The notes under the pieces: generated by a model
What the model was told of the DNA's origin: nothing
The model's database searches: none
What the model saw: only the letters and a program-made list of their open reading frames with translations
Position numbers and translations under genes: made by a program
From: Gemmatimonadaceae bacterium
GTDB lineage: Bacteria > Gemmatimonadota > Gemmatimonadetes > Gemmatimonadales > Gemmatimonadaceae
Direction of reading: 5' to 3'
NCBI GenBank assembly: GCA_035533015.1
Contig: DATLUQ010000047.1
Coordinates: 1-64,000, forward strand
Length of the DNA stretch: 64,000 bases
Part shown: positions 1-32,382 of the stretch, one piece after another
How the letters are laid out: each line of letters starts with the position of its first letter
Numbering within the stretch: the stretch's first letter is position 1

Positions 1-2600
1 AGCGTCATCGACCGCACGTCCTGACCGCAGTAGACGTCCGCTGTGAGCTTGATGTCGGTATGGTCGAGTAGCCGCGAGCATACGAGAAGGTTCCGGCGTG
101 CCCAGTAGCTGCCGAACAGTCGACGGACCGTGTGATAGCCGAGCGCTCCTTCGATCTTCTGCAGTACGGCGAGGTTGATTGAGAGTGACACCGCATGCCG
201 GGTGACAATGCGCTTGAAAGCCGCGCTCAATCGTGTGCGCCGCCAACGCCCGGGCGCGGCGTTCACCTTTCGCCCTTTTGCGGCGTGCCCCCGGACCGGC
301 GGCCGGCCCCGCGCCGTCCCATACTCGTCGCCAACGGCGTCCGGAAAGAGCCACGGCACGTCCTGCAGCGTCCGGCGGCCGGTCCGAGCGTCGACCTGCG
401 TACGGCACACATCGCGACCTCCTCCTTCCATGAACCACAACTCGAACAGGTCGCGCCGCAGACGGTGTTCCCGCATGGGGTCACCCTCTCGCTCCGGCGT
501 CCGCACGAACTCAGCCTGGATGAGGCGGCCAGGAAAATCTCGCTTCGACTTCATCTTGCGTCCTGGCACATCGATCCCCAGCTGGCCTTCCCAGGCCGCT
601 AGCGCCCCCATGTTGGCGAGCGCTTGCTGCGCGGGGCCCACGGGAAGGTTGAGCCATTCGGGCGTCGTCAGCCGGACCAACGTTCCCGCACGGAGTGGGA
701 GGCGCTGGGCGATCAACAACACGACCATCATGCGAAGGGTCTTACCCCACTGGCTTCCCGGATTAAAGCTGCCGGTTCGAATCGCACCGATCTGATCGGC
801 GATCGACTGGCCACCGGCGTGGCCGACCAGTTCGGCTTCCATGCACTCGACCAACTGCTCGAGTTTGACGAGCCCATCGACACCATCACCGCCCTTCCAT
901 CCGTTGGCGATTGCAAGCACATGCGCGGCGACCGCTCGCCGGTCCAGATGTTTGGGCCGCGGCAAACCCGCGCAGATTGACTCCAGATCTCGATACCACA
1001 CTCCAAGTTGCTCCACCCGCTCGCTATCACCGACACGCTCCGCCTCGCCGGCGAGGAATCCATTCACGAGCCACGTAATCGTTCGCACGCGCTGAGCGAG
1101 CGAGTTGTAGCGGGTTCCCCGCGAGTCTTCTGGCAACTCAAGCATCCATCGCATGAAGTCGTCCACGAACTTGGGATCGGCGAGCACCAGCAAGCCCGGC
1201 ACGTTCTCATCCGTCCAGTCGACGCCGCGCATCTTTGCCGCGAATCCCGCCAAGTACGCGAACATCGCGAGCCGCGACCGAAGGGTCTCTGCCGACACGC
1301 GGAAGGGGGCCGCCCCCTTTCGCCGGGTGGTGAGCGAGGAGGGCCACTTCCAGACACGCGCAGCGAGCGGGGGATTACTGAGTCGCAACTTGAGATCTTC
1401 CAATGTGCTCCACGCCGCCCAGCGGCGGAGACCATATTGGCCCTCAACGAGTCCAGCGGCGAACCGGCCGTCCGGCAATACCCATCCGGAGAAGTCACGG
1501 TCTCGCTCCGACGTGTCCGGGTCGGCCGCGGCCTCGATCGCACGAGCCCCGACGAGCGTCACGGGGGCCGTGGACTTTAGCGCCCAAGTATACTCGTCCC
1601 CGAGGCCCAACCGGGGCCCGAAGTGCGCGACGACCGCGCGCCACACCCAGCGGGCCGCGATCACCCGGTGCGTCGGGAGGATGTGTTGCGCACCGTCCGT
1701 GAGGATGAGGTCCCGAACGGCGAGCCAGTCGGTGCTACGCAAATCCACCCCGCCGAGCTTGGTCGCATAGGTTGCGAGAACCCGTGCACCATGGCTCGCC
1801 CGCGACGGATTCGTCGCGCCGCTGTATCGTTTCATCCAGTGGATGACCCGCTCCAGGATGGGGATCCATCCCGGCGAGTACATGTAGGGCCCACCGGCCT
1901 CCATGGCCGGGGCGCGTGAAATCAACCCGTACGTTGCCGCCAGGTACATGAGATTCTGCGCGGCCCCAACGTTCTTGCTGACCGATTCCTCGGCCATGTC
2001 CGGCTGCCATGGCGTCTGACTGCGCTTCGCCACGTGCTTCTCGCGGTGCTGGTCTCGCGTGAGGTTCCGCACCGTTTCGACGAGGGCCCACTCCCCTTGA
2101 CCGCCCCGGGCCTCGGGGGCCCACGTGAGCAGCGCCCCTGTGACCGTATACAGGTTGCCGTGCGCGCCGGGCAATCGGGACGCCACCAAGGTAGCCATTC
2201 GTTCGATGTCGTCCCACTGGGCGTTGGACAACACCCACACCTCCCGATTCGCATCGAGAGCCTTCCGCCCCTTCGGCGCCGCGTAGGTCGGGTCCGTGTG
2301 TTCGCGCGCGATGTCCAGGAGCGCGGCCAGCGACGTCGGCATGAACGCCCGGTGCGGCGCCGTCGCCAATACCCATCCTCCATGACCGATCATCTGCTGG
2401 ATGGCCCCGCGGTCTGCCAGCAGCTTGATTGCGCGGCGAGCAGCGTTCGTTGAACAGCCACAGACGGACCGGAGTTTGCCGATGTGGATGGGAAGGCCGC
2501 GCTGTGCCTGACGCTCGGCATGCGCCAGGATGCGATCCTCCAACGGCGCGTCGGCCAGATCGGTGAGTGCGGGCGGTTGGGGAGCGAGTACGGTGGTCAT
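1..2600 (-). CDS. wHTH-tyrosine recombinase (integrase), 3' end beyond window
   Basis: One open frame of 866 codons runs from ATG at 2600 to the window edge with no stop. Residues about 25-75 read as a GntR-like winged helix (helix around STNAARRAIKLLADRG, then a GGWVLA wing). The C-terminal part carries the tyrosine-recombinase set: Arg637 in LPLRAGTLVRL, H823-T-V-R826, H847 in LLDHTDIKLT and Tyr857, with R826-H847-Y857 spacing (21 and 10) close to XerD. A KMKSKRDFPGR stretch about 40 residues after Arg637 could supply the strand lysine. The gap from Arg637 to H823 is roughly twice the usual. At over 860 residues it is far larger than Xer or phage integrases. Expected role: site-specific integration and excision of the surrounding element. 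Fold and motifs are seen; target and partners are unknown. No Shine-Dalgarno sequence is visible. Confidence 0.8.
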   Translation of the reverse strand, partial: MTTVLAPQPPALTDLADAPLEDRILAHAERQAQRGLPIHIGKLRSVCGCSTNAARRAIKLLADRGAIQQMIGHGGWVLATAPHRAFMPTSLAALLDIAREHTDPTYAAPKGRKALDANREVWVLSNAQWDDIERMATLVASRLPGAHGNLYTVTGALLTWAPEARGGQGEWALVETVRNLTRDQHREKHVAKRSQTPWQPDMAEESVSKNVGAAQNLMYLAATYGLISRAPAMEAGGPYMYSPGWIPILERVIHWMKRYSGATNPSRASHGARVLATYATKLGGVDLRSTDWLAVRDLILTDGAQHILPTHRVIAARWVWRAVVAHFGPRLGLGDEYTWALKSTAPVTLVGARAIEAAADPDTSERDRDFSGWVLPDGRFAAGLVEGQYGLRRWAAWSTLEDLKLRLSNPPLAARVWKWPSSLTTRRKGAAPFRVSAETLRSRLAMFAYLAGFAAKMRGVDWTDENVPGLLVLADPKFVDDFMRWMLELPEDSRGTRYNSLAQRVRTITWLVNGFLAGEAERVGDSERVEQLGVWYRDLESICAGLPRPKHLDRRAVAAHVLAIANGWKGGDGVDGLVKLEQLVECMEAELVGHAGGQSIADQIGAIRTGSFNPGSQWGKTLRMMVVLLIAQRLPLRAGTLVRLTTPEWLNLPVGPAQQALANMGALAAWEGQLGIDVPGRKMKSKRDFPGRLIQAEFVRTPEREGDPMREHRLRRDLFELWFMEGGGRDVCRTQVDARTGRRTLQDVPWLFPDAVGDEYGTARGRPPVRGHAAKGRKVNAAPGRWRRTRLSAAFKRIVTRHAVSLSINLAVLQKIEGALGYHTVRRLFGSYWARRNLLVCSRLLDHTDIKLTADVYCGQDVRSMT

Positions 2601-2649
2601 AGTGTGTTGCCGGTAGCTGGGGGTGGCTGAAGGCTTCTTTTCTGTTTAT

Positions 2650-2949
2650 TCACGCAACGGACCGGTGCCATTCTGTTGCCTGCGAAATGGAAATCAGCTG
2701 CGGGACCGGTCGGCGGCGCAGCGTAGGCTCTTCGCCGGCCGATGGTTGGAGCCGGTAGCCATCGGTAGCCACCGGCCGCCGCCTTAGAGAAAGGCCCGGC
2801 ATGGCGTTCCGGCGCGAGAAATTAGAGAATCCGTTTGACGGCAAGTACTTAGCTACGATGGACGGGGTGGGCGCAGGACCGACTACTAGGGTGGCCCGGA
2901 GCTGGGCGCGGGCGCCGCGAGCCATTGTTTCTATTTCCACGGCGCTCAT
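2650..2949 (-). CDS. small hypothetical protein between the Xis-like gene and the integrase
   Basis: 99 residues from ATG at 2949, which overlaps the stop of the upstream gene as ATGA and suggests translational coupling. The stop lies 49 bases before the integrase start. The N-terminus (MSAVEIETMARGARAQLRA) looks helical; the rest is arginine-rich with no motif I recognise. The DNA under its middle is less GC-rich than its neighbours, so part may be non-coding. The start overlap and position are the main support; coding status is uncertain. Confidence 0.35.
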   Translation of the reverse strand: MSAVEIETMARGARAQLRATLVVGPAPTPSIVAKYLPSNGFSNFSRRNAMPGLSLRRRPVATDGYRLQPSAGEEPTLRRRPVPQLISISQATEWHRSVA

Positions 2950-3317
2950 ACGGCGGCCCCCGCGTGTTGCATTCGGCCGCGCCACGTGCGGCAGGCAGCG
3001 AGCGAGTAGCGCCACTCCCCGCCCGGCGGCCGAACGCCACCCCAACAGGGGACGCGCATCCACTGCGTCTTCGTCCACGCGATCCGCTCGGTCCGGTTGG
3101 CGAGGTACCCCTCGCGCTCATGCGCCGGCAGTTTCGCGATCTGGGCGCCAGTGAGGTATGGAACAGCCAACGACGCCGGCATCGGCACGGTCTCCTGACT
3201 CGCGGGATCCACGAGTTCCTCGAGGCCCCAGCGGAGTCGGTTGAATTCCTCGGAGTAGCCGAGGCCGCATGCTTCCGCGGCGCGGGAAGCGCTGATCAGG
3301 TCGGGGTCGCGGTGCAT
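2946..3317 (-). CDS. excisionase/MerR-like DNA-binding protein (putative directionality factor)
   Basis: 123 residues from ATG at 3317; the frame is open further up to a TTG at 3410. The start (DLISASRAAEACGLGYSEEF) resembles the first helices of an Xis/MerR-type winged helix, and the end (GVRPPGGEWRYSLAACRTW) resembles the wing and last helix of excisionases, where a GG-x-x-R-Y turn is typical. A long charged insert separates them. It is the first gene of a minus-strand set that ends in the integrase, with an ATGA overlap to the next gene. Recombination directionality factor is inferred from fold resemblance and neighbourhood; an ordinary regulator is equally possible. Confidence 0.5.
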   Translation of the reverse strand: MHRDPDLISASRAAEACGLGYSEEFNRLRWGLEELVDPASQETVPMPASLAVPYLTGAQIAKLPAHEREGYLANRTERIAWTKTQWMRVPCWGGVRPPGGEWRYSLAACRTWRGRMQHAGAAV

Positions 3318-3539
3318 AGGATTCTGAGGACGGTGCTGTCGGTGGGGGTGGCCGTTTGCATGAACGCGAGGCTCTACGACAGCAAGCGGGCTCGTCGGGG
3401 CCCCCGTCAAGGCCCCCCGCGCGAACGAACGCCGCCGCTGCTGCGGCCCTCTTCTGCTGGTCCCGGAGTAGGCGCGCTCCCGACTTCACATCCATATAGA
3501 GGGCTGGCGCTGGGCCTCGCCCCCCCGGTATCCGTGGAC

Positions 3540-4139
3540 ATGAAGGCCGATCGGTCCTGGTCGGCCGCACCTACGACCCAAGACGCCAGGCTGGCGCACC
3601 AGTTCGGCGTGCCCGAGAGCTCGATGCGGGCACTCCTGAGCTGCGGCCTCTGCGGGGACCCATCCCAGTTCAAACCCAGTGGGCCTCGAACGGCTTACCG
3701 AGTGCCCGCGCACATCGTGGCCGCCATCCGCGCAGAGATGGCCAGTGGACATTCGCTCGGAACCGTCTGCCTCGTCCACCTGACCCCGCCCTGGCCCGAT
3801 CTCGGCCCGCGCAAAGAATTGACGGATTCAGCCTCGACTCAGGATCCCAAAGCGATCATCGAACCGTATCCCGTCGAGCAGGAGTCGCCGACCAATGCCC
3901 GAGACATCGCACCACTGGCGCCTCGGAACCCAGAACGCCAGAGCCAGGGAGAGCCCACGCCGGCGGCGGCCCGCCAGCAGACGACTGCCCGTGGTGCTAC
4001 CAAAGGCCGGGCCGGGCGACGGACCTCGGTGGGTGGCGGAAAGTTCTGGCCAAGCGCGGGCCCACCACCGTCGCGTGATTGCCGTCGTGTCGTGGCCGGA
4101 GCCGCGCACGGGATTGGGGGTTCGTCAAACCCCAGGTAG
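3540..4139 (+). CDS. winged-helix-like hypothetical protein, divergent from the integrase operon
   Basis: 199 residues from ATG at 3540; the frame is open upstream, so the start is uncertain. Residues about 15-70 (LAHQFGVPESSMRALLSCG, then RTAYRVPAHIVAAIRAEM) read like a helix-turn-helix plus wing. The remainder is Pro/Arg/Gln-rich low complexity. Its stop is 10 bases before the next plus-strand gene, so the two are probably cotranscribed. The 222 bases between its start and the Xis-like start at 3317 would hold divergent promoters. Plausible regulator of the integrase module; function not established. Confidence 0.4.
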   Translation: MKADRSWSAAPTTQDARLAHQFGVPESSMRALLSCGLCGDPSQFKPSGPRTAYRVPAHIVAAIRAEMASGHSLGTVCLVHLTPPWPDLGPRKELTDSASTQDPKAIIEPYPVEQESPTNARDIAPLAPRNPERQSQGEPTPAAARQQTTARGATKGRAGRRTSVGGGKFWPSAGPPPSRDCRRVVAGAAHGIGGSSNPR

Positions 4140-4149
4140 ACTTCCGAGT

Positions 4150-4542
4150 ATGCCTGACCGCGACCCAGAAGACCCGTCGCTCCCAGTGCCCCGGGCCCCG
4201 GACAATCCCGGGCTCGACGATCTTGGTATCCAGTTCGACGCGCTGCTGGAGATGATGCAGCAGCCCGGTGTGCGCGACGCGGTTGACCGGGCCTTGAGGA
4301 CGACATCTCAAGAGATGGGGCGCGCGGCGGTCCAGGCGGCGCGAGGCGCCGCCACGCCGATCTTGATGCGCCACCGTATTCGCCTCGGCGTCGAGATTCA
4401 GACGGCCGCCGACCTCGCCGTGCACTTCCGTGATCTCGCCGGGCGCGTGCCCGATGATCCGGAACTGGCCGCCGCGCTCACCTCGGCCGCCGAAGGCCTC
4501 GAGCGCCAGCAGCCGCCAGGCCAGATTGCCTCGGCGCTCTAA
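4150..4542 (+). CDS. hypothetical alpha-helical protein
   Basis: 130 residues from ATG at 4150. The sequence is coherent and largely helical (FDALLEMMQQPGVRDAVDRAL; LAVHFRDLAGRVPDDPEL), without Cys, signal peptide or membrane segments. It follows the winged-helix-like gene by 10 bases. No family is recognised. Amino-acid composition and lack of low-complexity bias make it a credible gene, probably part of the integrase-linked module. Confidence 0.5.
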   Translation: MPDRDPEDPSLPVPRAPDNPGLDDLGIQFDALLEMMQQPGVRDAVDRALRTTSQEMGRAAVQAARGAATPILMRHRIRLGVEIQTAADLAVHFRDLAGRVPDDPELAAALTSAAEGLERQQPPGQIASAL

Positions 4543-4890
4543 CAGCAGGCGGTCCACGTGTCCGCGGGCCCTCCCAGCGCGCTCCGCGGCGTGGCCGAGG
4601 CGCTCAGGCGGATAGCGGCGCCCGTTGACCGGCCGTAAGGGGGCGACTGCAGCCGCGTTGGCGGGCGCGCGCCGGATTCCATTGACACATCTCTCAGGAG
4701 GTGCGCCTCGAATACATCGAAACTTCCCATGCGGCGTGCGAACCCGCGTCCGCCCCCGTTGGAACGCTCATGACTGGGGACGGCCCTGGTGACGGGACTC
4801 CGGGCCGAGGCGTGAGTCCGGCTGGACCCGATCTTAGGGACCCGGGCCGAGCGGCTGGCCGGAACATCATAACTGGATCAGCGCTTGCAG
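4543..4890. other. intergenic stretch, nothing recognised
   Basis: About 350 bases between the last integrase-module gene and the copper-protein remnant. Short frames on both strands lack recognisable features. A boundary between the mobile module and the metal cluster could lie here, but I see no repeat marking it. Confidence 0.5.
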
Positions 4891-5692: not shown

Positions 5693-6065
5693 GATGATCT
5701 CCAGTGAAGACACATAGATATCGCGCGTGTGCGGGCGCTGCCATCGCACGAACGTGTTACTCCGTACGCGATGCTTGAGGTGCAAGCCGCGCGGCAAGTG
5801 TTTGACGGGTTCGGCGGATTGACCGTGTCCACGCGTTGAGCGCGGTGGCTTCTGGGTCTCAGCGAACAGGACTCCGTCCGGCCTGCAAACCCGCTATGCG
5901 CAGGTTCGATTCCGGCCCGCACCTGTATAGGGTAGGTCTGGATATGCTGGCACCAACGGATGATCCGGGCTACGACCAGACCGACGTCTTTCGCGCGCTC
6001 GAAGCGCTCCGGCTGGAGAGGCTCGGCCCGCTCGAACCCGCCGGGGACAGCCGCCCGAGGAAGGG
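5693..6065. other. intergenic stretch with a tRNA-like half
   Basis: No gene is supported here. The only structure noticed is a tRNA-Cys-like 3' half on the plus strand (5878-5924, separate entry). Its reverse strand gives a spurious peptide with the AGRNRTC string typical of tRNA 3' ends read backwards. Confidence 0.5.
5878..5924 (+). other. tRNA-Cys-like 3' half (decayed tRNA or attachment-site remnant)
   Basis: Contains an anticodon-loop-like CTGCAAA (GCA at 5885-5887), a variable-loop-like TATGC and a T-loop GTTCGATTC with a T-stem matched at 4 of 5 positions (5900-5916). The anticodon stem matches at 3 of 5 positions and no D-arm or matching 5' acceptor strand precedes it, so it cannot be an active tRNA. 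Such 3' halves are left by element integration or decay. Confidence 0.35.
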
Positions 6066-8664: not shown

Positions 8665-11025
8665 GTGCACGATCACGCCCATGATCACGCGACGCCGGCA
8701 GGGCAACAGGTAACCGACCCCGTATGCGGGATGACCGTATCCGCGGAGTCGGAATACCGCGCGGCGAATCTGGGCAGCGAGTATCGATTCTGCAGCGCGC
8801 ATTGTCGGGATCGGTTTCTCGCCGACCCCTCGGCGTTCGCGGTGGACCGCGCCGCAACCTCAACGGTGACTGCGCCCGCCGCTAAGCCGGACGCCCCGCC
8901 CGTGAGCGGCGTGAAGTACACCTGCCCCATGCACCCGCAGATCGTGCGCGACGCGCCGGGGGCATGCCCGATCTGCGGTATGGCCCTCGAACCCATGATG
9001 CCGACGGCGGACGACGGTGAAAACACCGAACTCCGCGACATGACGCGACGCTTCTGGGGCGCGACGGCGCTCGCCGTTCCCCTGTTGGTGCTGGCCATGG
9101 GCGACGCCATGTTCGGATCAGCGCTCGCCGGCGCCATCGCGCCACGCACGCGGATTCTGCTCGAATTCCTCCTTGCAACACCGATCTGCACATGGGCGGC
9201 ATGGCCATTCTACACCCGCGCCGTCCAGTCCGTTCGCACTTGGAACCTCAACATGTTCACGCTGATCGGACTCGGCGTCGCCGTCGCCTACGGGTATAGC
9301 CTGGTCGCGACGCTGCTCCCGGGGATCTTCCCGGCGGCGTTCCGGGATGCCAGCGGTCAGGTCGCCGTGTACTTCGAGGCGGCCGGGGTGATCGTCACCC
9401 TCATTCTACTCGGGCAGGTGCTGGAACTGCGGGCCCGCAGTCAAACGAGCGCGGCGATCAAGCAACTACTCGGCCTCGCCCCGAAAACCGCCCGCCGCCT
9501 GCGGGACGACGAGACCGAGGAGGACGTCCCGCTGGATCAGGTCCAGGTCGGCGACCGACTCCGCGTCCGGCCCGGCGAGAAGGTCCCGGTGGACGGCATC
9601 GTGCTCGACGGCTCCAGCACGATCGACGAGTCCATGGTGAGCGGCGAGCCGATTCCGGTGGAGAAGCGGTCCGGAGACCGCGTGGTCGGTGCGACCATCA
9701 ACGGCACGGGATCCCTCGTGATGCGGGCCGAAAAGGTGGGGGCGGACACGCTGCTCGCGCGGATCGTGGCGATGGTCGCCGACGCGCAGCGATCGCGCGC
9801 CCCCATTCAGAAGCTCGCCGACATCGTCGCCAGCTATTTCGTGCCGACGGTGATCGTGGTCTCGGTCATCACCTTCGTCGTCTGGGCGTGGATCGGACCG
9901 GATCCCAAGATGGCCCACGCGCTGATCAACGCCGTGGCCGTGCTCATCATCGCCTGCCCGTGCGCGCTCGGCCTCGCGACGCCGATGTCCATCATGGTGG
10001 CCACGGGCAAGGGCGCGACGATGGGCGTGCTGTTCCGCAACGCCGAGGCCATCGAGGTGATGCGGAAGGTCGACACGCTGGTGGTGGACAAGACGGGTAC
10101 GCTGACGGAGGGACGGCCCAAGGTCGTTACCGTGATCCCCGCCCCGGGATTCAGCGACGCTAAGTTGCTCCGCTTTGCCGGGAGTCTCGAGCGCGGCAGC
10201 GAGCACCCGCTGGCCGCGGCGATCGTCCAGGGCGCGACGGATCGAGCGGTCCCGATGGGTACGGCCACCAACTTCGCGAGCGTGACGGGTAAGGGCGTGC
10301 GCGGCACCGTGGACAACCAAGCGGTCGCCCTCGGGAACCAGAGTCTCATGGACGACCTGCGCCTCGACGCCGGCCTGTTCGCGATTCGGGCCGAGGAGCT
10401 CCGCGGCGAGGGACAGACCGTCATGTTCGTGGTCGTGGGCGGTGTCCTGGCCGGCCTCATCGGCGTCGCCGATCCGATCAAGGCGAGCACCGCGGAGGCC
10501 GTGGACGCGCTGCACGCCGAGGGCATCCACATCGTCATGCTCACCGGTGATAGCCAGACGACCGCGGATGCGGTCGGACGGCGGCTCCGCCTCGACGAAG
10601 TCATTGCCGGAGTGCTCCCGGACCAGAAGGCCGCGGTCGTCAAGCGGCTCCAGAGCGAGGGTCGCATCGTGGCAATGGCGGGGGACGGGATCAACGATGC
10701 CCCGGCGCTGGCGCAAGCGCAGGTGGGGATCGCCATGGGCACCGGGACGGACATCGCGATGGAAAGCGCGAGCGTGACGCTGGTCAAGGGTGACCTCCGG
10801 GGCATCGTCCGGGCCCGGCGCCTCAGCCGCCGAACGCTCCGGAATATCAAGCAGAATCTGTTCTTCGCGTTCGTCTACAACACCGTCGGCATCCCGATCG
10901 CCGCCGGCGTTCTGTACCCGGCGTTCGGGCTGTTGTTGAGCCCGATGATCGCCGCGGCCGCGATGAGCTTGAGTTCGGTGTCCGTGATCAGCAACGCGCT
11001 GCGCCTGCGGAGCGCCGTCGTCTGA
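8665..11025 (+). CDS. copA: Cu+-exporting P1B-type ATPase with YHS and CPMHP-type N-terminal domains
   Basis: 786 residues from GTG at 8665, chosen for the GAGGAG at 8652; an in-frame start at 8629 has no such site. A His-rich start is followed by a YHS-like module (TDPVCGMTV ... YRFCSAHC) and a heavy-metal-binding module ([10 protein letters not shown] ... [10 protein letters not shown]) instead of HMA domains. The core has TM-metal motif C431-P-C433, phosphorylated D475 in DKTGT, SEHPL and GDGIND (D674, D678). This is the CPC (P1B-1) class that pumps Cu+ from the cytoplasm to the periplasm. Divergent from the Met-rich exported protein and preceded by a triple-repeat operator. Family certain; metal inferred. 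Confidence 0.93.
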
Positions 11026-17644: not shown

Positions 17645-19003
17645 ATGCACGCAATCACGCGGCGCATCGCGCGCCGCGTCCGCACCGCCCTCGGGGCATG
17701 CGGACTGATCGGGGGCGCATCCGCCGCGCTCGTCGCCGGCGCGGCACGCGCGGCCGCGGCGCAGGCCAGCGATACGACGCCCACGCTGCGATTGGGCGAC
17801 GCCTATGGCGAACTCGCGAGCCGCAACCCGCGCGTCGCCGCCGCCAAGGCGCTGGCCGCCGCGACCAACGCCACCGTGCGTTCGGCGTCGCTCCCGCCCG
17901 ACCCCCAGGTCCAACTCGGATTCATGAACTACGCCCTGCCCGACCTGCGTCCGATGGCGCCGCTCGGCATGATGCAGCTCCAGATCATGCAGATGATCCC
18001 GCTGCCCGGGAAACTCGGGTTGGCGGGCGGCGCTGCCCGCGCCCGAAGCGACGCGGCGCACGACCGTGCGGACGGCACGTATTGGACGGCGCGCGTCGGA
18101 CTCGCCGACGCGTTCTACGAACTCTACCGCCTCGACGCCCAGCTCGGCGTGGCGCGGCGCACGATCGCCCTGCTCGGCGACATCGAGCAGACCGCGCAGG
18201 CGATGTACAGGGTGGGCCAGGCCAGCCAGCCCGACGTGCTGCGGGCGCAGGTGGAGATCGCGCGCATGACCGAGGACACGCTGCGGATGGTCGCCATGCG
18301 CAGCGGCGCGGCGGCACGGTTCAACGCCCAACTCGACCGCACGGCCGACAGCACGCGCGGCACGCCGGTGCTGCCGGCCTTCCCCGATACGGCGCCGTCG
18401 CTGGACTCGCTCCTCGCCCTCGCCACGCGCGATCGCCCGGTGGTGCAAGCAGGGAGGGCCGACGTCACGGCCGCCGAGCGCCAACGCGACCTCGCGGCGC
18501 GCGACATGTGGCCGAACATCGCCGTCGGCGTCCAACTCGGACGGCGGCCCGGCGGCGTGGGCAACCTGATGGGGAGTCTCATGGTCGGCGCGTCGATCCC
18601 GGTGTTCATGAATGCGCGGCAGGGCGGCGCGCGGGATGCGGCGGCCGCGATAGCGGAGATGAGCCGCGCCGACCTCCGGGCCACCGAAGCCGAGACGCGC
18701 GCGTCGGTGTTCACGGCGTACGCCGATCTTCTGCGCGCCCGCCGGCTCACCGCGCTCTACCGCAACACCGTGCTTCCCCAGGCCGAAGCGACCGCCGCCT
18801 CGGCGCTCGCCAGCTATCGCGTGGGACACGTGGACTTCATGACGGTGCTCGACGATCGCATGACGGTGAACACGTACGAACAGGACCTGCACCAGCTCGA
18901 GTCCGACGAGGGCAACGCGTGGGCCCAGCTCGAAGCCCTCGTTGCTCGCAATCTGATCAACGCCAATTCCAGGGCCGCGCACGCGTCCGGAGGTTCACAA
19001 TGA
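17645..19003 (+). CDS. cusC: CusC-like outer-membrane efflux protein (TolC family)
   Basis: 452 residues, typical TolC-family length. An Ala-rich signal region (residues about 15-40) precedes two repeats of long helices and barrel strands: LRLGDAYGELASRNPRVAAA begins repeat one and DTAPSLDSLLALATRDRPVV begins repeat two; PGKLGLAGGAARA and IPVFMNARQGGAR are typical hairpin-adjacent elements. Forms the outer channel of a tripartite efflux pump. The stop overlaps the start of the adaptor gene as ATGA. Confidence 0.9.
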   Translation: MHAITRRIARRVRTALGACGLIGGASAALVAGAARAAAAQASDTTPTLRLGDAYGELASRNPRVAAAKALAAATNATVRSASLPPDPQVQLGFMNYALPDLRPMAPLGMMQLQIMQMIPLPGKLGLAGGAARARSDAAHDRADGTYWTARVGLADAFYELYRLDAQLGVARRTIALLGDIEQTAQAMYRVGQASQPDVLRAQVEIARMTEDTLRMVAMRSGAAARFNAQLDRTADSTRGTPVLPAFPDTAPSLDSLLALATRDRPVVQAGRADVTAAERQRDLAARDMWPNIAVGVQLGRRPGGVGNLMGSLMVGASIPVFMNARQGGARDAAAAIAEMSRADLRATEAETRASVFTAYADLLRARRLTALYRNTVLPQAEATAASALASYRVGHVDFMTVLDDRMTVNTYEQDLHQLESDEGNAWAQLEALVARNLINANSRAAHASGGSQ

Positions 19004-20364
19004 GCGAAGTTCTCCAGCCCCACGGACCGCGTCGCGGAACGATCCTCCGCTGGGGCGGCAGTCTCGTCGTCGTCGTGGCCGCGGCCGCCGCCGCGTACGT
19101 CCTCGGCCGGAAGCCGGAGACCCAGGCCGCCCCGCTGGCGATGGCCTCTGATTCCACCGGCGTCGCCGGTCGCCAGACCGTCATGCTCTCGCCCGCCGAG
19201 GCCCACCGTATTGGCGTGACCTACGCGCCGGTGACCATGGGCCCGGTCGTTCATGAGGTGCGGACCGTCGGCCAGGTGTCGTACAACGAGGAAACCGTCA
19301 CCACCATCGCGCCCAAGCTGGACGGGTGGGTGGACTCCCTGGTCGTGAACTACACCGGTCAGACGGTGACGCGCGGGGAGCCCCTGCTCACCATCTACGC
19401 GCCGATGGCGGTGGCCGCCGAGGAGGAACTCGTGCTCGCCCGACACCTGCGCGACCGGGTGGCGCAGGGTACGGCCGACGCCAGGAGCGGCGCCGACGAC
19501 CTGCTGGCAGGCGCGCGGCGCCGGCTGGCGTATTGGGACATTCCGGCGTCCGACATCGCGCAAATCGAATCCACGGGGGTCGTGCGCAAGACGCTCACGC
19601 TGCGCTCGCCGGCCACCGGTGTCGTCGTGCAGAAATCGGTGGTGGCCGGCCAGCGCATCATGGCCGGTCAGGCCCTGTACCAGATCGTGGACCTGCGCAC
19701 GGTCTGGGTGCAGGGCGAGGTGTTCGAGCGCGATCTTCCCGCCGTGCAACTCGGGCAGCGTGTAAACGCGACGTTCGAAGCGCTGCCGGGCACGGTGCGC
19801 ACGGGGCGCATCACCTTCATCGACCCCGTGATCAATCCCGACACGCGGACCGCGCGTGTGCGCATCGCGCTGGCCAATGCCGACCTCGCGCTCAAGCCGG
19901 GGATGTATGCCACGCTCACCGCGGATGCGCACGAGGATCCGCATGCGCTCAGCGTGCCGCGCAACGCCGTGCTCTCTACCGGCGAGCGCAACGTGGTATT
20001 CGTGAAACGGCCCGACGGCATGCTGGAGCCGCGCGAGATCACGGTCGGGATGGCCGGCGACGAGCGCATCACCGTGCTCCACGGCCTCGCGATGGGCGAC
20101 ACCGTCGTGGCCTCCGCCACCTTCCTCGTGGACGCCGAGTCGAACCTCGCCGAGGCCATGGGTGGCATGGGCGGGATGCCGGGCATGGACATGTCGCCGC
20201 CGGGCAAACAGTCCGCCCCACCGCGCAAGTCCGATACCACAAAGGCAATGCCGGGCATGCCCGGGATGAAGATGCCCGCGCCCGTCAAGCACGACACGAT
20301 GCCGGACATGCCAGGCATGCCCGGCATGAAATCCCCCAAGCCCGCCGCCGGCGGGCGCCGTTAG
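19000..20364 (+). CDS. cusB: CusB-like periplasmic adaptor with Met-rich C-terminal tail
   Basis: 454 residues from ATG at 19000 with GGAGG at 18989. An N-terminal anchor (SLVVVVAAAAAAYVLG) is followed by the membrane-fusion-protein pattern: KLDGWVDSLVVNYTGQ and RSPATGVVVQKSVVAG lipoyl halves around a helical hairpin, then barrel strands (VNATFEALPGTVRTGRITFI). The last 65 residues are low complexity with GMGGMPGMDM and repeated MPGMPGMK units, an unusual soft-metal tail that may take over the role of CusF. Links the CusA pump to the CusC channel. Confidence 0.92.
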   Translation: MSEVLQPHGPRRGTILRWGGSLVVVVAAAAAAYVLGRKPETQAAPLAMASDSTGVAGRQTVMLSPAEAHRIGVTYAPVTMGPVVHEVRTVGQVSYNEETVTTIAPKLDGWVDSLVVNYTGQTVTRGEPLLTIYAPMAVAAEEELVLARHLRDRVAQGTADARSGADDLLAGARRRLAYWDIPASDIAQIESTGVVRKTLTLRSPATGVVVQKSVVAGQRIMAGQALYQIVDLRTVWVQGEVFERDLPAVQLGQRVNATFEALPGTVRTGRITFIDPVINPDTRTARVRIALANADLALKPGMYATLTADAHEDPHALSVPRNAVLSTGERNVVFVKRPDGMLEPREITVGMAGDERITVLHGLAMGDTVVASATFLVDAESNLAEAMGGMGGMPGMDMSPPGKQSAPPRKSDTTKAMPGMPGMKMPAPVKHDTMPDMPGMPGMKSPKPAAGGRR

Positions 20365-20373
20365 GAGCCGACC

Positions 20374-23300
20374 ATGTTGAATCGTGTGATCAGCTGGTCG
20401 GTGCGCAATCCGCTGCTCGTACTGCTGGGCACGGCGGCGGCGGTGGCGATCGGCATCTGGGCCGTGGAGCGCACGCCGCTCGACGCCCTGCCCGACCTCA
20501 GCGACGTACAGGTCATCGTGCAGGCCGACTATGAAGGCCAGGCGCCGCGGATCGTCGAGGACCAGGTCACCTATCCGGTGGCCGCGGAGATGCTCAAGGT
20601 GCCGGGCGCCAAGACCGTGCGCGGGTACTCGTTCTTTGGCGTGTCGTTCGTGTACGTGATTTTCGAGGACGGCACCGATCTGTACTGGGCGCGCTCGCGC
20701 GTGCTCGAATACCTGAGCGGGATCAAGGCCAAGCTGCCGGCCACCGTCACCCCCGTGCTGGGGCCCGACGCCACGGGGCTCGGCTGGGTCTATCAGTACG
20801 CGCTCGAGGACACGAGCGGCCGGATGTCCATTGCCGACCTGCGGAGCCTGCAGGACTGGAACATTCGCTACGCGCTCACCGGCGTGCCCGGCGTGTCGGA
20901 AGTCGCGTCGGTGGGTGGCTTCGAGAAGCAGTATCAGGTTGACGTGGATCCCACCAAGCTGCTCGCCTACGGCATTCCGATCACGCGCGTGATGAGCGCC
21001 ATTCGCAACGCCAACAGCGACGTGGGCGCGATGGTGATGGAGCTCTCCGAGCGCGAGAACATGGTGCGCGGCCTGGGCTATCTGAAGTCGGTGGCCGACA
21101 TCGAGAACGTGGACGTGGGCGCCACGGCAAGCGGCACCCCGATCACCGTGCGCGACGTGGCCAACGTGACCGTGGGCCCCGCGGTGCGGCGCGGCATCGC
21201 CGACCTGGACGGCCGCGGCGACGCGGTGGGCGGCATCGTGATCATGCGCTTCGGGCAGAACGCGCTGACCACCATTCACGCGGTGAAGCAGCGGCTGGCC
21301 GAGGTGGCCAAGTCGCTGCCGCACGGCGTGGTGGTGATACCCGTGTACGACCGCAGCACGCTCATCGAGCGGGCCATCGAGACGCTGCGCGGCAAGCTGT
21401 TCGAGGAGTCGATCATCGTCGCGCTGGTGTGCCTGATCTTCCTGCTCCATGCGCAGTCCGCGCTGGTGGCCATTCTGACGCTGCCCGTGGGGATCCTGCT
21501 CGGCTTCATCGCCATGCGGCTCGCCGGTGTGGGCGCCGACATCATGAGTCTGGGCGGCATCGCGATCGCGATCGGGGCGATGATCGACGCGGCGATCGTG
21601 ATGATCGAGAACATGCACAAGCATCTGGAGCGGGCCGCGGGGCCGGGCGACGGCGGCGCCGATGCCCGCGTATTCGACACGCGAACGCTCACCGCGGCGC
21701 AGCGCTGGCAAGTGGCGCTTGACGCCGCCCGCGAGGTCGGCCCGTCGCTTTTCTTCTCGCTGCTCGTGATCACGGTCTCGTTTCTTCCCGTGTTCACCCT
21801 CCAGGGGCAGGAAGGGCGGCTGTTCCGGCCGCTCGCGTTCACCAAGACCTTCGCGATGGCGTCCGCGAGTCTGCTGTCCGTCACGCTCGTGCCGGTCACC
21901 ATGGGCTTGTTCATTCGCGGGCGCATCTACCGCGAGCGTGCCAACCCGATCAACCGGTGGCTGATTCGCCTCTATCGCCCGATCATCGACGGTGTGCTCC
22001 GCCACCGGCTGGCCGTGGTCACGGCGGCGCTGGCCATTCTCGCGCTCAGCTGGGTGCCCTGGGCGCGCATGGGCGGCGAGTTCATGCCGCCGCTCTACGA
22101 GGGATCGCTGCTGTACATGCCCACCACCATGCCCGGCATCAGCGTGGCGCGGGCACGCGAGATCCTCCAGGTCGAAGACTCGATCCTCAAGAGCTTCCCG
22201 GAGGTGGAACACGTATTCGGCAAGACCGGGCGCGCCAACACGGCCACCGACCCCGCCGGGCTCGACATGACCGAGACCACGATCATGCTCAAGCCGGAAT
22301 CCGCATGGCCGGCGGGGATGACGCACGACAAGCTCGTGGCCGACATGGATTCGGCCGTGCGGACCCCGGGCATCATCAATGCGTGGACCATGCCCATCAA
22401 GGGACGGATGGACATGCTGGCTACGGGGATCCGCACGCCAGTGGGGGTGAAGATCTTCGGCCCCGATCTCGACACGCTGCAACGGATCGGCCAGGACGTG
22501 GAGCGGGCCGCGCGGATGGTGGCGGGCACGCGCAGCGCCTTCGCCGAGCGCGCGGTGTCGGGCTACTACGTGGACATCAGCATCGATCGGGAGCAGGCGG
22601 CCCGCCACGGACTCAACGTCGGCGACGTGCAGAGCGTGATCGCGGCGGCGATCGGCGGCATGACTGTGACGCAGACCGTCGAGGGGCGCGAGCGCTATGC
22701 CGTGCGCGTACGGTACCCGGAGGAATTGCGGGACACGCCCGAGCGGCTGGCCGAGGTGCTCGTGCCCATGGCCCATCAGGCCAGCCGGCCACCGGGGATG
22801 ACTGCGGCGTCGATGGCCATGCCCTCCGCCACGGCCAGCGAGGGTCCGCTGCCGACCATGGCGGGTCGTGTCGGGCAGGTGCCGCTGGGCGAGGTCGCCA
22901 CGATTCGGCAGGAGACCGGACCGATGGTGGTCCGCACCGAGAACGCGACGCCCACCGCCTGGGTGTACATCGACGTCGCCGGACGCGACATCGGGAGCTA
23001 CGTCGCCGATGCCCAGCGTACGGTGGAGCGCGAAGTGAAGCTCCCCACCGGCTACCGGATCGAGTGGAGCGGGGAGTACGAGTACATGCAGCGCGCGCGG
23101 GCCCGGATGACGATCGTGATCCCGGCCACGCTGGCCATCATCTTCCTGCTGTTGTTCCTCAACTTCCGGACGGTCGGCGATTCGCTGCTGGTGATGGCGT
23201 CGCTCCCGTTCGCGCTGGTGGGCGGGCTCTGGTTCGTCTGGGGGCTGGGCTACAACTGGTCGGTGGCGGTGGCCATCGGATTCATTGCACTGGCCGGTGT

Positions 23301-23718
23301 GGCCGCGGAGACCGGAGTGGTGATGCTCATCTACCTGAACCAAGCGTGGGAAGAGAAACTCGCGCACGGCGGCACACCGACGGTGCAGGCCCTGTACGCT
23401 GCGGTCATCGAGGGCGCGGTTGATCGCGTCCGGCCCAAGATGATGACCGTGGTGGCGATCATGGCCGGGTTGCTGCCGATTCTATGGGGCAACGGCACCG
23501 GCGCCAGCGTGATGAAGCGCATCGCCGCGCCGATGGTGGGCGGCATGGTGTCGAGCACCATCCTCACGCTGGTCGTCATCCCCGCCCTGTATTCATGGTG
23601 GAAGGAGTGGGAACTCCGGCGCGCGACCTCGGCGGCGCTGAGCCCCGCGCCCATGCCTGGACTTCCACTCGGCGCGCCCCTGGCGTCGAGCGTCATTCAC
23701 CCTGAGCGCGCCGAATGA
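20374..23718 (+). CDS. cusA: CusA/CzcA-family heavy-metal RND efflux pump
   Basis: 1114 residues, slightly longer than E. coli CusA. HME-RND signatures: LDALPDLSDVQVIVQ near the N-terminus, the large periplasmic loops, proton-relay helices (IAIAIGAMIDAAIVMIENMH) and the second transmembrane block (IGFIALAGVAAETGVVMLIY). A Pro/Met-rich insert about 800-830 (PPGMTAASMAMPSATA) lies in the second periplasmic loop. Expels Cu+/Ag+ or divalent metals from the periplasm using proton motive force. The start follows the adaptor by 10 bases with GGAG; the operon is cusC-cusB-cusA. Confidence 0.95.
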   Translation: MLNRVISWSVRNPLLVLLGTAAAVAIGIWAVERTPLDALPDLSDVQVIVQADYEGQAPRIVEDQVTYPVAAEMLKVPGAKTVRGYSFFGVSFVYVIFEDGTDLYWARSRVLEYLSGIKAKLPATVTPVLGPDATGLGWVYQYALEDTSGRMSIADLRSLQDWNIRYALTGVPGVSEVASVGGFEKQYQVDVDPTKLLAYGIPITRVMSAIRNANSDVGAMVMELSERENMVRGLGYLKSVADIENVDVGATASGTPITVRDVANVTVGPAVRRGIADLDGRGDAVGGIVIMRFGQNALTTIHAVKQRLAEVAKSLPHGVVVIPVYDRSTLIERAIETLRGKLFEESIIVALVCLIFLLHAQSALVAILTLPVGILLGFIAMRLAGVGADIMSLGGIAIAIGAMIDAAIVMIENMHKHLERAAGPGDGGADARVFDTRTLTAAQRWQVALDAAREVGPSLFFSLLVITVSFLPVFTLQGQEGRLFRPLAFTKTFAMASASLLSVTLVPVTMGLFIRGRIYRERANPINRWLIRLYRPIIDGVLRHRLAVVTAALAILALSWVPWARMGGEFMPPLYEGSLLYMPTTMPGISVARAREILQVEDSILKSFPEVEHVFGKTGRANTATDPAGLDMTETTIMLKPESAWPAGMTHDKLVADMDSAVRTPGIINAWTMPIKGRMDMLATGIRTPVGVKIFGPDLDTLQRIGQDVERAARMVAGTRSAFAERAVSGYYVDISIDREQAARHGLNVGDVQSVIAAAIGGMTVTQTVEGRERYAVRVRYPEELRDTPERLAEVLVPMAHQASRPPGMTAASMAMPSATASEGPLPTMAGRVGQVPLGEVATIRQETGPMVVRTENATPTAWVYIDVAGRDIGSYVADAQRTVEREVKLPTGYRIEWSGEYEYMQRARARMTIVIPATLAIIFLLLFLNFRTVGDSLLVMASLPFALVGGLWFVWGLGYNWSVAVAIGFIALAGVAAETGVVMLIYLNQAWEEKLAHGGTPTVQALYAAVIEGAVDRVRPKMMTVVAIMAGLLPILWGNGTGASVMKRIAAPMVGGMVSSTILTLVVIPALYSWWKEWELRRATSAALSPAPMPGLPLGAPLASSVIHPERAE

Positions 23719-26378: not shown

Positions 26379-27148
26379 ATGAGACGAATGCTGGCCCCAG
26401 CGGCCGCGTTGATCGCCGGCGTCAACTTTGGTGGCGCGGACCAGCCGGCAAAGACGCCCGCACCGTCGTGCGCCGCTACCTCCACCTCGCTCACGCCAGC
26501 GGCGTGGGCCCCGGCACCGCGCGCCGCCGCGCCGATTCCTCGCCGGGCGCTCACCGTCGTCGAGGACATTCCCATCCCCGGCCCCGCGAACCGCTTCGAT
26601 TATCAGAGCTACGATCCGGCCACGCACCGCATCTATATAAATCACATGGATGCGGGCGTCACGCTGGTGTTCGACACCGACAACGGGCGCGTCGTGGCGC
26701 AGATCGGTGATTTGCCGCGCGCCACCGGCGTGCTCGCCGTGCCCGCGCACCACGCGGTGTACGTGTCCGCTGCGGGCTCGCACGAAGTGGCGATCATCGA
26801 TGACCGAACACTGAAGGTCACCGCCCGCGTGGGGGGGGCATTCGCTTTCCCGACGGCACCGTTGTTGCTCCGGAGGCCGACAAGGTGTTCGTCTCCGACG
26901 AGTCGGGTGCCGCCGACGTCGTCATCGACCCGCGAACCGAGGCCAAACGCTCGACGATTGCGTTGGGTGGTGAAGCGGGCAATGCGCACTACGATTCGGT
27001 GTCGCACTGCATCCTCGTGACCGTCCAGACCCGGAACCAGCTCGTCGCGATCGATCCAGTGTCGGAGGCAATCTGGACCAGGAATCGGAGGCCGAGGCCA
27101 CTGGCATCCGCGACTGCTCGCCGCGGACTCCCCATCCCGGTGGTATAG
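26379..27148 (+). pseudogene. broken YncE-like beta-propeller protein
   Basis: Starts as an exported protein (MRRMLAPAAALIAGVNFGG), then follows the intact paralogue at 30657 closely (IPIPGPANRFDYQS; INHMDAGVTLVFDT; ATGVLAVPAHHAVYVSA). The frame is lost in a run of eight G at about 26831-26838, and homology resumes in another frame (DKVFVSDESGAADVVID; HYDSVSHCILVTVQT) to LVAIDPVS near 27060. The remaining 110 or so residues of the propeller are missing. Two defects make it a genuine pseudogene. Confidence 0.8.
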
Positions 27149-30656: not shown

Positions 30657-31727
30657 ATGCGTACCACGTTCGGAGTGTTGTTAGCCGGCGCCACGCTGAT
30701 CGGCGCCGTGCCGCTCGCGGCCCAGGGGACGTCTTGCTTCGCCACCGCAACATCGATGACGCCAGCCGGGTGGCACGCCGTCGCCCTGGCATCACCCCGC
30801 GCCCCGCGAGGGCCCCTGCGGCTCGTCGCGGACATCCCGCTTCCCGGGCCCGCGAACCGCTTCGACTACCAGAGCATCGATCCGGCGGCTGGCCGGCTGT
30901 ACATCAGTCATATGGACGCTGGGCAGTTGGTCGTGTTCGATCTCAATTCGTCGCGTGTGGTCGGCGAGGTTGACGGCGTCGCACGAGTCACCGGAGTATT
31001 GGCCGTTCCCGCCGTTCATTCCGTTTACGTCTCGGCACCGGGCGGCCACCAAGTCGCGGTAATCGATGACCGCACGCTCGCCATCAAGGGGCGCGTCGGC
31101 CCCATCCGATTCCCGGATGGGATCGCGTATGCGCCGTTGGTGCACAAGGTATTCGTGTCGGACGAATCGGGCGGGGCGGACGTCGTGATCGATGCAGCCA
31201 CGAACACCAAGCGCGCCACCATCGCGCTGGGGGGCGAGGCCGGCAACACCCACTACGACTCGGTGTCGCACTGCGTGTTGGCGGCGGTCCAGACGAAGAA
31301 CCAACTCGTGGCCATCGACCCCGTGCGCGAGCGCGTCGTCCAGCGGTACGACCTACCTGGATCGGACGGGCCTCACGGCTTCACGCTCGACGAGGCGGGG
31401 CGCCTGGCGTTTGTGTCGAGTGAGGGGAGTGGCGTGCTGCAGGTGGTGGACCTGCGCACCATGCGGGTGCTGTCCACGCACCGGGTGGGAGACGATCCCG
31501 ACGTGCTGGCCTGGGATCCGGGATGGCGCCGACTCTACGTCGCGTCGGAATCCGGCGTCGTGAGCGCGTTCGAGGCGGACGGGGCGGTGGTCCGGCCGCT
31601 CGGCGATCTACGTGCCCCGCATGCCCACACCGTGGCCGTGGATCCGCGAACGCACCTCGTGTATCTCCCGCTGCAGAACCTGGGCGGGCGGCCCGTCCTT
31701 CGGGTGCTCACGCCGCTGCCTCAATGA
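30657..31727 (+). CDS. exported YncE-like beta-propeller protein, intact copy
   Basis: 356 residues from ATG at 30657, where a signal peptide begins (FGVLLAGATLIGAVPLAAQ); the frame is open to 30486. Repeated propeller blades of about 42 residues: RFDYQSIDPAAGRLYISHMD, VTGVLAVPAVHSVYVSAPGG, HKVFVSDESGGADVVID, HYDSVSHCVLAAVQT and later blades. YncE/YVTN proteins are periplasmic, of uncertain role. It is the complete paralogue of the broken gene at 26379, about 3.5 kb upstream. Confidence 0.83.
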   Translation: MRTTFGVLLAGATLIGAVPLAAQGTSCFATATSMTPAGWHAVALASPRAPRGPLRLVADIPLPGPANRFDYQSIDPAAGRLYISHMDAGQLVVFDLNSSRVVGEVDGVARVTGVLAVPAVHSVYVSAPGGHQVAVIDDRTLAIKGRVGPIRFPDGIAYAPLVHKVFVSDESGGADVVIDAATNTKRATIALGGEAGNTHYDSVSHCVLAAVQTKNQLVAIDPVRERVVQRYDLPGSDGPHGFTLDEAGRLAFVSSEGSGVLQVVDLRTMRVLSTHRVGDDPDVLAWDPGWRRLYVASESGVVSAFEADGAVVRPLGDLRAPHAHTVAVDPRTHLVYLPLQNLGGRPVLRVLTPLPQ

Positions 31728-32154
31728 CCGGACTGGGCCGCATGATCATCGGGCCCCACCTTGGATCCTGTACGGCGGAACGAACGTTCGATGACGCGTC
31801 GGCGCGCGCCACGAGCCGTGAGCCGCCTGCTTGGACCAGGGTCCCGGAACAGGTGCCCCGCCGGGGAAGGCCCGCGGGCCAATTCGCGCCCTTGACAGCA
31901 ACCGGGGCAGATAGAGCGCAATGCGTGGTCTCCCGGAACTCCGTGAGCACGCTCGACGGGCCTATGGGCCACAACAAAACCGGAGAACTGATGCCAGATA
32001 TTCTCCAGATAGTCTATGCCCTTTTTTATGCCCGACGCGTCTTGCCACAGAGGGGCAAGCACACTCGCCAACAGAGGCCCGCCGGGGGCATAAACCGACG
32101 ACTCGCGCCAAAACGCTTGATCGTAAAGCATTAACCAACAATAACTTACAAAAG
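31728..32154. other. intergenic stretch before the tRNA pair
   Basis: No gene is supported. The right half (about 31970-32155) is clearly richer in A+T than the surroundings, with a run of six T near 32022 and a CTTGCC/GGCAAG hairpin at 32041-32059. It lies at the 3' end of tRNA-Met, the usual position for attachment sites, but no repeat partner was found in the window. Confidence 0.5.
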
Positions 32155-32228
32155 TAGCAGGGGTGGGACTCGAACCCACGACCCCGGCATTATGAGTGCC
32201 GTGCTCTAACCACCTGAGCTACCCTGCC
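32155..32228 (-). tRNA. tRNA-Met (CAT), elongator type
   Basis: Acceptor GGCAGGG (32222-32228) pairs with CCCTGCT with one G-U pair; T-arm GTGGG-TTCGAGT-CCCAC; D-arm GCTC-AGGTGGTTA-GAGC; anticodon CAT at 32192-32194 in loop CTCATAA. The paired first position distinguishes it from the initiator. A tRNA-Ile with modified CAU anticodon cannot be excluded by eye. CCA is not encoded. Confidence 0.93.
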
Positions 32229-32277
32229 CCACGTCCTACGCTGGCCGATAACCTAATCACGGCCTTGCTCAACAGAA

Positions 32278-32305
32278 ACCGGCCGGCCCTTTCGGACCGG
32301 CCGGT
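32278..32305 (-). terminator. GC-rich hairpin between the two tRNAs
   Basis: ACCGGCCGG (32278-32286) pairs perfectly with CCGGCCGGT (32297-32305) over a 10-base loop, between tRNA-fMet and tRNA-Met. On the minus strand it is followed by TTTCTG. It may terminate the fMet transcript or act as a processing signal. Confidence 0.5.
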
Positions 32306-32308
32306 AAA

Positions 32309-32382
<74 letters not shown>

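Follow-up and report, generated by a model that had tools for sequence, protein, structure and literature searches.

What is the very large gene that runs off the left end of contig DATLUQ010000047.1, from a Gemmatimonadaceae genome (GCA_035533015.1), and do it and its neighbours form an integration system of a new kind? From the letters of the DNA, the original prediction had described a giant tyrosine recombinase with a winged-helix N-terminus, accompanied by an excisionase-like gene, a small coupled gene and a divergent gene pair, and had suggested a distinct class of mobile-element integration system. We analysed 64,000 nucleotides (the window), whose base 1 is base 1 of the contig, one of 66 contigs in an assembly of 3.03 Mb.

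Catalytic residues and domain layout of the recombinase

The recombinase, P0001, is cut at its C-terminus by the contig edge just past the active-site tyrosine; its length is at least 866 residues, which bears out the expected size of more than 860. Homologues were found in three genomes of the same group, G238 (L007, 788 aa), G367 (L010, 843 aa) and G404 (L041, 720 aa in its main frame), and are 23–26% identical to P0001 over the aligned length. The closest named relative that we found is the G238 locus (GenBank PMYN01000056, from a Gemmatimonadetes metagenome-assembled genome), which was also the sole return of a contig scan with N-terminal patterns. Alignment of the four proteins showed conservation along the entire protein, with R637, K684, H823, R826, H847 and Y857 of P0001 invariant in all of them, a complete R-K-H-x-x-R-H-Y set in the order of the tyrosine recombinase superfamily (PF00589).

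On its own, P0001 matches no Pfam, PHROG or integrase NCBIfam model, its sole NCBIfam match being a sub-threshold match to a regulator at residues 42–81. The three homologues, by contrast, do reach PF00589, though weakly (best E 9.8e-5), as well as integrase families of PHROG (best E 4.5e-7). Searched against the PDB up to E 10, a profile built from the family's C-terminal part retrieved 13 sequences, all integrases or recombinases, with HP1 integrase (E 0.00061) and XerD (E 0.006) as the best matches, and the family profile also picked up ordinary integrases in sister genomes. Because the invariant residues, the PDB profile and the PF00589 and PHROG matches of the homologues agree, the sequences place the P0001 family firmly in the tyrosine recombinase superfamily, a placement that P0001 by itself would not have revealed. 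The family is genuine, though rare and divergent, and belongs to an enzyme class that is well known.

Too few homologues were available for confident AlphaFold models (mean pLDDT 54.7 and 42.4), which made a fold search meaningless, so the domain architecture was read from sequence alone. The catalytic domain is enlarged, as predicted: the catalytic Arg and HxxR lie 186 residues apart in P0001 and 162, 147 and 143 residues apart in the homologues, compared with 95–130 (median 95) in 27 ordinary integrases from this bacterial family. Across the four proteins, the added residues fall partly between Arg and Lys, at 35–51 residues, and mainly between Lys and HxxR, at 108–139 residues. The segment from HxxR to Tyr is of normal length (34–35 residues) and aligns with HP1 integrase and XerD.

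The predicted GntR-like N-terminus fared less clearly. P0001 matches TreR/GntR at E 0.0019, and L010 matches DeoR/GlpR (E 0.00075) and HTH_DeoR (E 0.0079) at residues 20–63, all below the curated cut-offs, yet at about the same place in the two proteins. The low-confidence model of P0001 has helices at residues 14–33, 40–47, 51–63 and 66–72. An N-terminal winged-helix domain is thus likely in this family rather than proven, since the matches are weak, though two members agree on its place. At the other end of the protein, L010 carries a zinc ribbon of the UPF0547 type (E 2.9e-8), and the end of L041 is similarly cysteine-rich.

Table 1. Coordinates of the recombinase, its neighbouring frames and candidate element ends in the window
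Feature	Position	Strand	Evidence
Large tyrosine recombinase P0001	3–2600	-	Open frame of 866 codons, homologues, alignment
Nucleophile Tyr, Y857	30–32	-	Four-protein alignment
Catalytic His II, H847	60–62	-	Four-protein alignment
HxxR motif, H823 and R826	123–134	-	Invariant in four proteins; profile match to PDB tyrosine recombinases
Enlarged Lys–HxxR stretch, 138 residues between K684 and H823	135–548	-	Alignment
Conserved motif GDP..E..LRR.L.E...GG.RD within the Lys–HxxR stretch	about 408–485	-	Alignment
Catalytic Lys, K684	549–551	-	Invariant in four-protein alignment
Catalytic Arg I, R637	690–692	-	Invariant in four-protein alignment
N-terminal winged-helix-like segment, residues 42–81	2358–2477	-	NCBIfam TreR match
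"Coupled" frame, probably a leader or regulatory stretch	2650–2949	-	Codon score -0.022 per codon, no homologues
Small gene P0002, 123 aa, candidate excisionase or recombination directionality factor	2946–3317	-	Coding signal, homologue in G367
Divergent frame, doubtful as a gene	3540–4139	+	First half weakly coding, second half non-coding
Divergent gene, 130 aa	4150–4542	+	Coding signal
Repeat of about 155 bp, possible element end	4693–4848	+	Second copy 94% identical, bases 3–156 of contig C40 in this assembly
Decayed 3' half of a tRNA-Cys gene, possible attachment-site remnant	5879–5924	+	40 of 46 positions identical to three congeners

Neighbouring genes and distribution

Codon scores between +0.14 and +0.22 per codon mark the recombinase frame, P0002 and the 130-aa divergent gene as coding. 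P0002 also has a counterpart in G367, where a related frame, cut off by the end of its contig (L012), lies upstream of the recombinase; the two are 27% identical over 112 columns and score 35.4 bits, whereas the best of 2000 shuffles reached 24.6. In G238, the roughly 8 kb that can be read ahead of the recombinase contain no P0002 homologue, and the upstream DNA in G404 is too short, which leaves the pair in one of the two loci whose upstream side is readable. The Xis/MerR-like character assigned to this gene found no such backing: a Pfam search with P0002 that admitted matches up to E 10 returned no family, excisionase and MerR HTH models included. Its size, position and orientation nevertheless suggest an excisionase role.

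The remaining neighbours hold up less well. The small gene said to be coupled to the recombinase overlaps the preceding stop as ATGA, has a negative codon score and no homologues, and contains a near-repeat at 2753–2772 (CGGTAGCCAT/CGGTAGCCAC); it is probably a leader or regulatory stretch of the recombinase rather than a gene. Of the divergent pair, one member is coding and the other doubtful. The coding 130-aa gene has no convincing family match in Pfam, NCBIfam or PHROG, and HTH models matched neither divergent frame, contrary to the winged-helix nature proposed for one of them. Likenesses between the divergent frame and sequences near other integrases were put down to chance, the matched frames containing stops or being unrelated. 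The divergent genes and the coupled frame are probably passengers or non-genes. The five-gene order was not seen elsewhere, the Xis-like gene being the only one of the four neighbours to recur and the only one with support as a partner of the recombinase. Non-conserved neighbours, which the original prediction had itself named as grounds for refutation, are thus what most of the module shows.

Of 179 genomes of the bacterial family, 4 have a full-length match to the recombinase; the three congeners have none, and no relatives were found in collections of viral contigs, phages and plasmids. In G404 the gene (L041 421–2966) is split into two frames, with the N-terminal part in another frame, either because the gene is frameshifted or because the assembly is wrong there. 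Gene neighbourhoods differ at all four loci. The G238 homologue shares its region with defence-type genes (L008 15221–19135): a nucleotidyltransferase and a partner matching the PADLOC candidate PDC-M05A/B, with a DrmD-like helicase after them. In the window, the recombinase is followed by a metal-handling region (5044–27809) with two HMA-domain proteins, a P-type ATPase (8665–11025), a response regulator and histidine kinase pair, an ArsP permease, a cation efflux protein and an OEP/HlyD/AcrB (CusB/AcrB-type) efflux set at 17645–23718. Parts of this region have homologues elsewhere in sister genomes, and its genes could conceivably travel with the recombinase. Two further stretches, 26557–27061 and 30823–31325, share 71–73% identity, keep about 4265 bases apart throughout and are apparently a diverged duplication.

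Candidate element ends and the role of the gene

Two features near the recombinase hint at an old integration. The tRNA-Cys half, 3.3 kb from the recombinase, matches its congeners well above the best of 12 shuffled queries (29 of 46 positions), and an intact tRNA-Cys gene is absent from the whole assembly. Between the sister genomes G284 and G054 (L107 1–5509 and L106 5994–10098), the 3' end of tRNA-Cys is the exact limit of homology; beyond it, the sequences are completely different, and no integrase was recognised in them by eye. Because this assembly has no intact copy and congener homology ends at this point, tRNA-Cys looks like a place of sequence exchange in the genus. The second feature is the repeat of about 155 bp, which has no further copies in other genomes of the bacterial family and whose left boundary is not fixed, as the second copy begins at a contig start.

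Other candidates were set aside. As an attC-like single-strand hairpin, the repeat folds no better than shuffled sequences. Contig C30, considered as the chromosomal flank of tRNA-Cys, matches through an acetyltransferase-like gene that is possibly a paralogue. Two tRNA-Met genes (32154–32382) form the edge of the synteny kept with three congeners, and what lies to their left is variable. The one at 32154–32228 was considered as an attachment site, since synteny with congeners starts around it, but was rejected: similarity runs about 140 bp beyond the gene, and no duplicate of its end was found. Rfam at gathering thresholds returned only the two tRNAs, the surroundings of the recombinase showed no long inverted repeat pair, and a complete element with two ends could not be delimited.

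Taken with the full catalytic set, the conservation along the whole protein, the regulator-type N-terminal matches, the P0002 homologue in G367, the defence-type genes near one homologue and the distribution of the family, these observations make it probable that the gene encodes an integrase, a large and divergent tyrosine recombinase of rare occurrence that serves an integrative element or genomic island and carries out standard strand exchange. By homology, the enzyme would cut and rejoin DNA at a short attachment site through a 3'-phosphotyrosine and Holliday-junction steps. Its N-terminal winged helix, standing in for the usual arm-binding domain, would attach to accessory sites of the arm or promoter type, and P0002 would push the reaction toward excision, with the other neighbours as passengers or non-genes. 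The 3' end of tRNA-Cys may have been a past target. Several points weigh against this reading: two element ends could not be delimited, the assembly lacks an intact tRNA-Cys while its fragment is decayed and distant from the recombinase, G238 has no P0002 homologue upstream, and the G404 gene is split.

A less probable account, which we regard as unlikely, makes the gene a decayed remnant, left from a mobile element that is now immobile for want of functional ends or a partner, and not yet lost. Six mismatches in 46 positions of the tRNA-Cys fragment, 6% divergence between the two copies of the repeat, the frameshifted appearance of one recombinase homologue and the weakness of several neighbouring frames fit such decay, but the recombinase keeps an 866-codon open frame with a coding signal and all catalytic residues. 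Moreover, four diverged lineages retain the same residues, which argues for selection on the family overall. On balance an integrase is favoured, though its element may have decayed in part.

It is very unlikely that the recombinase has instead been domesticated for regulation or inversion, in which case the winged helix would be a transcription-regulator domain. The N-terminal matches are indeed to bacterial transcription regulators (GntR/TreR, DeoR), but the patchy distribution, with no congener holding the recombinase, the differing neighbourhoods at all four loci and the lack of a long inverted repeat pair nearby speak against this. Hardly any weight can be given to the idea of five genes acting together as an integration system of an entirely new class: no Pfam, NCBIfam or PHROG model describes the whole of P0001 and its architecture differs from the subgroups set out in the accessible part of a published survey (PMC8138268), but the catalytic set is standard, a single neighbour recurs, in one locus, and another fails as a gene on its codon score. 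The "distinct class" of the original prediction went too far, as nothing hints at a different reaction.

Relation to known tyrosine recombinases

The integrase that we favour shares with XerC/D, HP1 and lambda integrases (PF00589) the R-K-H-R-H-Y order and a normal HxxR–Tyr segment. It differs from them in being about twice as long, in the distance from Arg to HxxR (143–186 residues in the family against about 95) and in its likely added winged helix and long central region. The claim that it is unlike Xer, phage and Tn554-type integrases stands for length, N-terminus and catalytic spacing, and library models do not describe the family. IntI and the insertion-bearing subgroups, as described in the accessible part of PMC8138268, also carry extra sequence in the catalytic domain; the insertion of P0001 is larger than theirs and has its own conserved motif (Table 1), and no cassette array was seen beside the gene in the window. 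The integron integrase model TIGR02249 did not match P0001 and matched L010 weakly (E 0.1), well short of the cut-off. In another integrase of the same genome (L002, G000:C28:108386–108976), Arg and HxxR are likewise further apart, at 130 residues, a spacing like that of integron integrases.

Tn554 works as a set of adjacent recombinases. The RitA/B/C "recombinases in trio" are likewise described, in the part of PMC8138268 available, among tyrosine recombinases linked to mobile genetic elements and bearing added structural features. Unlike Tn554 TnpA and Rit, which act in multi-recombinase sets, the P0001 family has one recombinase per locus, and none of the homologous loci has a second beside it; on its left side, the window ends at the contig edge.

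Closer in layout are the complex integrases IntTn916, IntSXT, IntBPP-1 and IntCTnDOT, for which the same part of PMC8138268 describes an N-terminal arm-binding domain, typically of a three-strand/one-helix fold. They share with P0001 an additional N-terminal DNA-binding domain, a likely one in P0001, and, in many elements, a small excisionase gene, for which P0002 is the candidate here. In contrast to that fold, the N-terminus of P0001 has matches to winged-helix regulators only, and Pfam arm-binding domain families matched neither P0001 nor its homologues. None of the subgroups described in that part of the survey has the architecture of P0001. We tentatively propose, as a possibility well short of the integrase assignment itself, that the P0001 family is a separate, undescribed subgroup of tyrosine recombinases, defined by an N-terminal winged helix that replaces the arm-binding domain, a conserved module inserted between Lys and HxxR, a C-terminal zinc ribbon in some members and a small upstream directionality protein.

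Ordinary chemistry is expected for P0001. If its winged helix is the arm-binding part, then this role is filled by different domains in different lineages. As a tool, too, a new recombinase that comes with a directionality factor could be of use. Integrases mark mobile elements, and finders of the PF00589 type would miss the P0001 family together with any islands that it moves in Gemmatimonadota.
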